From the NCBI GenBank assembly GCA_003244105.1, contig QHBK01000003.1, positions 1 through 64,000 of the forward strand: 64,000 nucleotides of DNA, written 5' to 3'. This document shows positions 20,745 to 26,425 of the stretch, in pieces. The notes beneath the pieces are model-generated. The model had not been told where the DNA came from, did not search any database, and saw nothing but the letters and a program-made list of their open reading frames with translations. Positions within the stretch are counted from its first letter, which is position 1, and every line of letters starts with the position of its first letter. A program made the position numbers and the translations under genes. This stretch comes from Candidatus Eremiobacter antarcticus. GTDB lineage: Bacteria > Vulcanimicrobiota > Vulcanimicrobiia > Eremiobacterales > Eremiobacteraceae.

Positions 20745-20815
20745 GAAAGAAACCTTTGAAAGAAACCCTTGAACGAAGACCCAACCTTGGGAACTGCAGA
20801 AAAGGAGATTTCGCG

Positions 20816-21343
20816 GTGATCATTCACGGCACCCGCCGCGTCTTCGAAGGGCGAGTCATCAACGTGCGGGTCGACGACGTTGAGTTCGACAACGGCCACC
20901 GCACATCGATCGAAATCGCCGAACACCGGGGAGGCGTGGCCATCATCGCGCAACCGTCGCCGAATGAAATCGTGCTGGTCAAGCAATTCAGGCCGGCGAT
21001 CGGACGCTCTATGTGGGAAGTGCCCGCCGGCAAACTGGAAGCGGGCGAAGATCCCGAGACGAGCGCGCGCCGGGAACTCATCGAGGAGACGGGCTATCGC
21101 TGCGCCCGCTTGCACAAACTGTGGACGTTTTACACGGCGCCCGGTTTTTGCAGCGAGCTGTTGCACCTCTTCCTGGCGGAGAATATCAGCGCCGGCGCGT
21201 CCGCGCCCGAAGCGAGCGAGTCCTTTGAAGTCCGGTCATTCGACGTGGAAGAGGCTTGGCGCATGGTCATTGCGGACGACTTACCTGATGGGAAGACGCA
21301 GATCGCGCTTGCCTGGGCCCGGGAGAATCGGCGAGGTGGATAG
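20816..21343 (+). CDS. Nudix hydrolase, ADP-ribose pyrophosphatase type
   Basis: 175 residues from a GTG at 20816, chosen for the AGGAG eight bases before it; the frame opens at 20756. The Nudix box is complete: G-x5-E-x7-REL-I-EE-T-G in [20 protein letters not shown] at about residues 79-98. The upstream strand [22 protein letters not shown] and the downstream [17 protein letters not shown] match the ADP-ribose/nucleotide-sugar pyrophosphatase group (NudF-like). It hydrolyses nucleoside diphosphates linked to another group, using Mg2+. It ends directly against the convergent archaemetzincin-like gene. Confidence 0.9.
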
Positions 21344-21874
21344 TCAGCGGTTGGCGCGCACGCGTTTATCGCACGTGTCGCAGAAGTATGTGAGCTTCGC
21401 GTCCGTGTCGAACACCGAGTGGCTATAGTACATGGCGCAGCGAGTATTGTAGCAGTGCTTGAGGCCGAACGCATGGCCGAGCGCATGCACGCATTCCTTG
21501 AGGGTACGATTGAAGAACACCGCGTCATCGGGCTCTTCATTGTAAAATTCCGGCTTCAGCCGGAATGTTGACACGACAGCGACCCTATCGGTTTCGCTCG
21601 CGTCGCTGAAGATGAAGTTGTGCGACGTCTTATACAGGTCGCTCCCGATCAGGCCGAACAGAAGGCCGTCGCGCGCCGGATAGGCGGCAAGCAGCCGGTT
21701 GAAAACAGTGTTGAGAAAGAACTGCCGCCGGACGGAGTTTGCTTGGGTGGGCGAGAGGGTGAGCGGCTTTTCGACTGCGAATTTATGGAAGAATCGTTCT
21801 TCCAGGCATGGAGCGAGCCGTTCGCATATTTCCGGTGCGACGCCGTTGATGGGGACGAGGGTTATCTTTTCCAA
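21344..21874 (-). CDS. Archaemetzincin-like protein lacking the catalytic Glu
   Basis: 176 residues, the size of bacterial and archaeal archaemetzincins, which are zinc metalloproteases with HExxHxxGxxHC. Here the motif reads CVHALGHAFGLKHC: the three His (130, 134, 140) and the following Cys are kept, but the general-base Glu is Ala131 (codon GCG at 21482-21484). The Cys-rich tail CAMYYSHS...YFCDTC, including the Met-turn position, is also conserved. The protein should still bind zinc but not cleave peptides by the usual mechanism. The start ATG at 21874 has no strong ribosome site. It abuts the Nudix gene and is divergent from acpS. Confidence 0.88.
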   Translation of the reverse strand: MEKITLVPINGVAPEICERLAPCLEERFFHKFAVEKPLTLSPTQANSVRRQFFLNTVFNRLLAAYPARDGLLFGLIGSDLYKTSHNFIFSDASETDRVAVVSTFRLKPEFYNEEPDDAVFFNRTLKECVHALGHAFGLKHCYNTRCAMYYSHSVFDTDAKLTYFCDTCDKRVRANR

Positions 21875-21988
21875 GACACTGAAGCGCGCTGTCCTCCTCC
21901 GTCATGACGCGGTTCGATTCGTCACCGTTCAACCTGTCCGATGCAAGTCCTCCGGCATGGATGCAACGACGCGCGAGAAGAGAACGCA

Positions 21989-22407
21989 ATGATCATCGGC
22001 CTCGGCACCGACGTCGCAGAAGTGGAGCGCTTTCGATTCGATGATGAGAAGCTCGCGAAGTTCTCACGCAAAATCTTCACGCCGGAGGAGATAGCTCACG
22101 CACGGCGTCATCGTTACCCGCACGAGCGGCTCGCGGGCGCGTTCGCCGCAAAGGAAGCGACGCGCAAGGCGTTCGGCCATGCCATTCCATGGCGGCTCAT
22201 CGGTGTGCGTCACGAGGGCAGCGGCAAACCCTACGTCGCGCTGTTGGGTCGCGCTGCCCACCTCATCACCGCGCGCGGCGTCTGGCGCATGCACCTGAGC
22301 ATTTCGCACAGCGAGGTGAACGCGGTCGCCACGGTGATCCTTGAGGCGGACGATCAGGCGGGCGGCGTGGTCAGCCGGTCGTTGGACTCTGAGGAGATCG
22401 CCGCGAA

Positions 22408-22411
<4 letters not shown>
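21989..22411 (+). CDS. acpS: Holo-[acyl-carrier-protein] synthase
   Basis: Transfers 4'-phosphopantetheine from CoA to acyl carrier protein. 140 residues from the ATG at 21989. It opens with MIIGLGTDVAEVERF, where the Asp binds Mg2+. The second signature RLAGAFAAKEATRKAF holds the catalytic/metal Glu and Lys, and LSISHSEVNAVATVI forms the last strand. About 20 residues of tail follow. The stop overlaps the nnr start by four bases (ATGA), the classic acpS-nnr pair. Confidence 0.94.

Positions 22412-26425
<4,014 letters not shown>

Follow-up and report, generated by a model that had tools for sequence, protein, structure and literature searches.

An archaemetzincin-like protein with HALGH in place of HExxH in Candidatus Eremiobacter antarcticus: a probable pseudoprotease beside acpS

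What is an archaemetzincin selected for when the glutamate of its HExxH motif has been replaced by alanine? The question is raised by a gene of peptidase family M54 in a window of 64,000 nucleotides (positions 1 to 64,000 of contig QHBK01000003.1) from Candidatus Eremiobacter antarcticus, whose product reads HALGH at the active site. In metzincins this Glu polarises the zinc-bound water (PMC3427221). AMZ-tk, an M54 member, cuts casein, and its E183Q mutant is described as having minimal activity (PMC4681839); some M54 members are therefore real proteases, and from the part played by the Glu and the E183Q result loss of proteolysis in a HALGH protein is strongly expected. The natural substrates of archaemetzincins have been called unknown (PMC3427221), and losses of the active site within one group of orthologues are a natural experiment on what the family does. 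We consider it likely that the window protein is a pseudoprotease, an archaemetzincin without proteolytic activity that has kept its metzincin fold and, most probably, its two zinc sites. The original prediction had read the letters in the same way, as a pseudoprotease with a selected non-proteolytic role, and on comparison with related sequences this interpretation is supported and right in substance.

The gene, its zinc ligands and its predicted fold

The gene (Table 1) is the single M54 match (E <= 0.001) in a genome of 2.64 Mb in 19 contigs, and the homology of its product to the M54 family is far above chance: Pfam PF07998 (Peptidase_M54) is matched with 69 bits against a gathering score of 24.4 (E=7e-19), and the NCBIfam archaemetzincin model NF033823 with E=7.2e-42 and 143.2 bits, less than 2 bits short of its cut-off of 145. 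In the 14 genomes searched from the same family no further M54 match reached E <= 0.001, which speaks against an active M54 paralogue elsewhere in the genome. Residues 130-140 of the protein read HALGHAFGLKH, and after them comes the archaemetzincin tail, C-x4-C-x-M...C-xx-C. His130, His134 and His140, the cysteines 141, 146, 165 and 168, and the Met-turn Met148 are all present, and the Cys4 signature HCx4CxM...CxxC is complete; the catalytic Glu of HExxHxxGxxH is absent and Ala131 stands in its place. The two observations from which the study started, HALGH instead of HExxH in an archaemetzincin and an intact set of zinc ligands with the Cys-rich tail, were thus borne out (M54 match; codon GCG at 21484-21482; three His and four Cys present and invariant in the clade described below). 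The codon itself had been placed two bases away from GAG, wrongly: a single base differs, the middle one.

Table 1. Features of the M54 locus, in positions of the window
Feature	Positions	Strand	Remarks
M54 archaemetzincin-like gene	21344..21874	-	176 aa, TTG start; ORF, Pfam and NCBIfam matches, fold model
HALGH, residues 130-134, degenerate HExxH with first two His ligands retained	21473..21487	-	
Ala131 codon GCG replacing the catalytic Glu	21482..21484	-	GCG in 14/14 family genomes
His140, predicted third zinc ligand (catalytic-type site)	21455..21457	-	
Cys141-x4-Cys146-x-Met148, first two Cys of the Cys4 zinc site, with the Met-turn	21431..21454	-	Cys4 in 109/109 class genomes
His152	21419..21421	-	His in 13/13 clade proteins; Asn in 69/71 Glu-bearing class proteins
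Cys165-xx-Cys168, last two Cys of the Cys4 zinc site	21371..21382	-	
Intergenic region separating the divergent M54 and acpS genes	21875..21988	.	114 bp
acpS, holo-ACP synthase, divergent neighbour	21989..22411	+	TIGR00516 above cut-off
NAD(P)H-hydrate epimerase/dehydratase (nnrD/yjeF type), after acpS	22408..23979	+	TIGR00196 and TIGR00197 above cut-off
Nudix hydrolase, convergent with the M54 gene	20756..21343	+	ORF and family search

An AlphaFold2 model computed with the window protein and 23 relatives has a pLDDT of 95.4. The best-matching solved structures are archaemetzincins (3ZVS/4AXQ, 2X7M and 3LMC; Z 24.4-25.0) and the next metzincins follow at 14.9; 3zvs_B is matched with E=1.3e-16 and 3zvs_A with Z 24.9 (rmsd 1.5 over 158). 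The window protein is thus predicted to have an AmzA-like metzincin fold.

Active-site states across the class, and selection

The relatives compared come from 198 genomes, M54 being present in 134, and from 30 loci on named contigs, of which 17 bear the title Candidatus Eremiobacterota or Eremiobacteria; the resulting 174 loci encode 143 distinct proteins. A wider search gave an M54 match in at least 166 of 388 genomes (the initial 198 included), and 24 further proteins were read among the matches listed. Loci are numbered with L and genomes with G below. Two of the loci, L033 and L045, lie on contigs titled Proteobacteria and Rhodospirillales; since their M54 genes and the neighbouring genes place both in the Eremiobacterota class of the window genome, these public labels look wrong.

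HALGH stands in a stop-free frame in every one of the 14 genomes sampled from the window's family, and in all of them Ala131 is encoded by GCG. An error of sequencing or assembly at 21482-21484 is for this reason rejected as very unlikely, and the close relatives that might all have read HELGH do not. The invariance of GCG does not point to a specially selected codon: GCG is the most frequent Ala codon of the 13 clade genes, making up 109 of their 200, and four of the 29 invariant four-fold columns use one codon only, so that there is nothing unusual in it. The metzincin Gly is kept in 11 of the 14 genomes (10 of 13 distinct proteins) and is Ala in the other three. The 13 distinct HALGH proteins form one clade, with an SH-aLRT of 100 in a tree of 130 rows from which the motif columns were excluded (13 distant or short rows omitted), and with support of 100/100 in a more careful tree, for which 19 long-branch rows were omitted and the remaining 111 thinned to 97, 12 of them HALGH, and whose bootstrap had not settled. 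The closest full-length Glu-bearing relatives (L038-L041) share 57-59% identity with the window protein. The exchange of Glu for Ala in this family would most simply be one change at the family root. A distant M54 protein with HALGH occurs on a long branch in another family of the same phylum (L093, genome G131), where it apparently arose independently.

Purifying selection on the HALGH protein is about as strong as on its Glu-bearing relatives. Under the GY codon model omega is ~0.06 for the 13 HALGH genes and ~0.06 for 17 HELGH genes from another family of the same class, which makes decay unlikely. Pairwise NG86 (Nei-Gojobori) dN/dS values, which are rough because many pairs have dS above 0.8, have a median of 0.128 in the HALGH clade, slightly higher than in four Glu-bearing sets (0.077, 0.094, 0.119 and 0.124), which we count against the pseudoprotease reading; the medians are 0.152 for a group with HDLGH and 0.058 for a lineage without any zinc His. 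None of the three His, the four Cys and the Met varies among the 13 distinct HALGH proteins, although 86 of the 176 columns overall are likewise invariant, and the invariance of the His by itself is modest evidence. The two parts of the original proposal, that HALGH would define a clade with dN/dS well below 1 and that the protein is not decaying, both agree with these values. An unneeded protease that erodes slowly, with the Glu as its first visible loss, would fit the slightly raised pairwise median and the absence of His ligands from several sister lineages as well; it is very improbable, and already close to refuted, in view of an omega about equal to that of the Glu-bearing set, of stop-free frames in all 14 family genomes, and of a still lower dN/dS in the very lineage that has no His left.

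The class as a whole extends this picture. Among 117 class genomes searched, eight gave no M54 match and the gene was read in 109, the three genomes with two loci (G062, G094 and G102) being counted with one locus apiece. Of these 109, 37 have no catalytic Glu: 14 have HALGH, ten have Asp, one has Asn, and 12 have also lost two or three of the His; one further genome retains the Glu and has lost the second His. All three His are gone in ten genomes, eight of which belong to one genus (g22; L075-L082) where the three His and Glu positions read Y-A-R-S, with the Cys4 site kept; this is the lineage with the dN/dS median of 0.058. The Asp form, HDLGH or HDIGH, is a clade of ten genomes with support of 97/84 (L020, L025, L026, L029, L120, L133, L152, L160, L166 and L167). 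On the 97-row tree at least six changes of the Glu state and four of the His triad are needed, and none of the Cys4 site; on the 130-row tree the minimum for the Glu state is nine. The statement that everything except the general base is conserved therefore holds for the window's family and not for the class, where the His are lost too (12/109) next to the Glu (37/109). What the whole class keeps is the fold and the four-Cys site, which is intact in 109 of 109 genomes. Outside the class, 32 loci have Glu in 24 cases, Gln in five, and Ala, Lys and a gap in one case each, and Glu is found in 22 of the 24 further distant proteins; the Cys4 site is not universal there, at least one Cys being lost in L003, L086, L097 and L177. 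Two distant-family matches, L197 (G305) and L198 (G374), lack HExxH and keep the four Cys, and L198 is also without the Met.

Taken together, the repeated loss of the general base and of the His triad, the retention of Cys4 in 109 of 109 genomes, and an omega of ~0.06 in a Glu-bearing as well as in the Glu-less HALGH set, the two of seven sets for which it was read, point to a job that does not require the cutting of peptides. Proteolysis is probably dispensable for the job of this orthologue across the class, which would explain the repeated loss of the active site with Cys4 kept.

The HALGH family could instead have an altered enzyme, in which the HALGH site is still catalytic by means of another residue or of a metal-bound hydroxide. 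The candidate for a base, or for a fourth zinc ligand, is His152 of the S1'-wall segment: six alignment columns sharply split the HALGH clade from the 71 Glu-bearing class proteins, residues 131 and 152 among them, and the 13 distinct family proteins all have both Ala131 and His152, with the three His ligands retained. In the column of His152, A. fulgidus AmzA has Asn138, which together with Met78 occludes the cleft and shifts on ligand binding (PMC3427221). Its tie to the loss of Glu is loose, however: His152 also occurs with an intact Glu in L142 and L192 and in the Glu-less L159 and L198, Tyr takes its place in L093, the distant protein with HALGH, and the two changes fall on one family branch, which makes them a single coincidence. 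As His152 is also found beside an intact Glu we treat it as a lead, and an altered enzyme of either kind as unlikely.

The acpS neighbourhood and the possible job of the protein

The M54 gene lies divergent from acpS, with the starts less than 400 bp apart, in all 109 class genomes in which it was read, and a NAD(P)HX repair gene is present at 104 of these loci; the gap between the M54 gene and acpS measures 39-141 bp (136 loci, duplicates included). At the 32 loci outside the class no acpS was detected by tblastn with the protein of the window in ~1-2 kb of flank, a search that a diverged acpS could escape. The linkage being class-wide and unseen outside the class, the M54 genes of the class are best taken as orthologues. 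A Nudix gene, searched for in the same way, was detected solely at loci of the HALGH family; in the window its stop codon and that of the convergent M54 gene touch at 21341-21346, with zero bases between. A promoter shared by the M54 gene and acpS found no support: no sigma-70-like site was matched in 21800-22050, where 0.1 would be expected, a result that says little for this phylum.

For a pseudoprotease the following way of working can be suggested. Without the Glu, the zinc-bound water would stay unactivated and no peptide would be cleaved; the fold, stabilised by the Cys4-bound zinc, may then act as a binding or scaffold protein, and by analogy with CarG, the archaemetzincin homologue of Myxococcus xanthus, the former substrate cleft with its His3-bound zinc would be the likely docking surface. 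Zinc binding and inactivity of the HALGH protein are both points that we infer. Several sister lineages have lost His ligands, so zinc at the His3 site may be of no importance.

The sole lead to a partner is the acpS-nnrD locus, and the linkage could also be plain synteny. As a tentative and rather doubtful extension, the M54 protein encoded next to acpS-nnrD throughout the class might have a selected function that never needed proteolysis, as a partner, stabilised by its Cys4-bound zinc, of this locus or of its products; in the HALGH family the zinc site would then persist in remodelled form, with Ala131 and with His152 perhaps as its fourth ligand, and in other lineages it would have been given up altogether. 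If this were true, an intact HExxH in a bacterial archaemetzincin would be no evidence for a protease. What makes the locus interesting is that the active site has been lost repeatedly, and across whole lineages, in a single syntenic group of orthologues that keeps Cys4 throughout; the class offers matched sets of proteins for testing: HALGH, HDLGH, HELGH, and those with no His. In the literature, no paper containing both 'Eremiobact' and 'archaemetzincin' was found among the matches listed, most subscription papers not being searchable, and a term search of the 2024 pseudopeptidase review PMC11266112 gave no occurrence of M54, CarG or archaemetzincin.

Comparison with AmzA, AMZ1 and CarG

The structurally known relatives are the AmzA proteins of A. 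fulgidus (3ZVS/4AXQ) and M. kandleri (2X7M), which have the fold in common with the window protein (Z 24.9-25.0) at 31-35% identity. The three zinc His, the Cys4 residues and the Met-turn are likewise shared with the M54 family (AmzA, AMZ-tk), from which the window protein differs by Ala131 for the Glu and by His152 for the equivalent of Asn138; unlike AmzA and AMZ-tk it is bacterial, and it is fixed beside acpS in its class. AfAmzA and MkAmzA have an intact HExxH and yet are reported as inactive in standard assays (PMC3427221), so that the loss of the Glu may change less than is apparent. A degenerate zinc site is also described for vertebrate AMZ1, where the third His has been replaced (PMC3427221), whereas the window protein lacks the Glu and has every ligand in place.

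The sole characterised non-proteolytic bacterial archaemetzincin met in our literature search is CarG, which has Gln for Glu, is described as having no protease activity, coordinates two zincs and plays a regulatory role (PMC8156234); it binds CarD in a regulatory complex (PMC8156234, PMC4374960), and its Cys mutants fail to complement (PMC3427221). The window protein resembles it as an archaemetzincin homologue with the Cys4 site present and the catalytic Glu replaced, and one may ask whether it too is a transcription co-regulator that binds a CarD-like RNA polymerase-binding protein. The common fold and a match to NF033824, the model for non-proteolytic archaemetzincin-like proteins, with E=1.6e-21 speak for this, but the match reaches 76.9 bits where the cut-off is 250, and the CarD-CarG pair has been reported from myxobacteria only. 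The CarG motif is HQx2Hx2Ex2HC, with Gln for Glu and Glu for Gly (PMC8156234), and the window protein, with HALGHAFGLKHC, does not match it. The single CarD-domain match of the window genome lies in a protein like the transcription-repair coupling factor, TRCF (helicase, UvrB-interaction and TRCF domains), and in the 14 family genomes, two of which are 72% and 81% complete, such matches occur solely in open frames of 720-1265 aa; as frames were counted from stop to stop, a long one might still hide a short CarD gene. In the control genome G176 a CarD-domain frame of 344 aa lies ~1 kb from the CarG-type gene L087, and there is one of 200 aa too; a second good CarD-domain match, in a frame of 666 aa, was seen in G022, from a Glu-bearing family (f3). 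G176 has two M54 proteins without the Glu: L087 fits the published CarG motif, and L088 is a second, different form with Gln for Glu and Tyr for the third His. Model score, motif and neighbour all failing, the window protein is not a CarG; with NF033824 below its cut-off and no CarD partner found, the CarG-CarD mechanism has no support, and a CarG-type co-regulator is an improbable reading of the HALGH protein.

Inactive archaemetzincins are already known, and the HALGH lineage would add a new form to them. Like CarG, the window protein is presumably non-catalytic; carG adjoins carD, and the window gene adjoins acpS and a Nudix gene instead.
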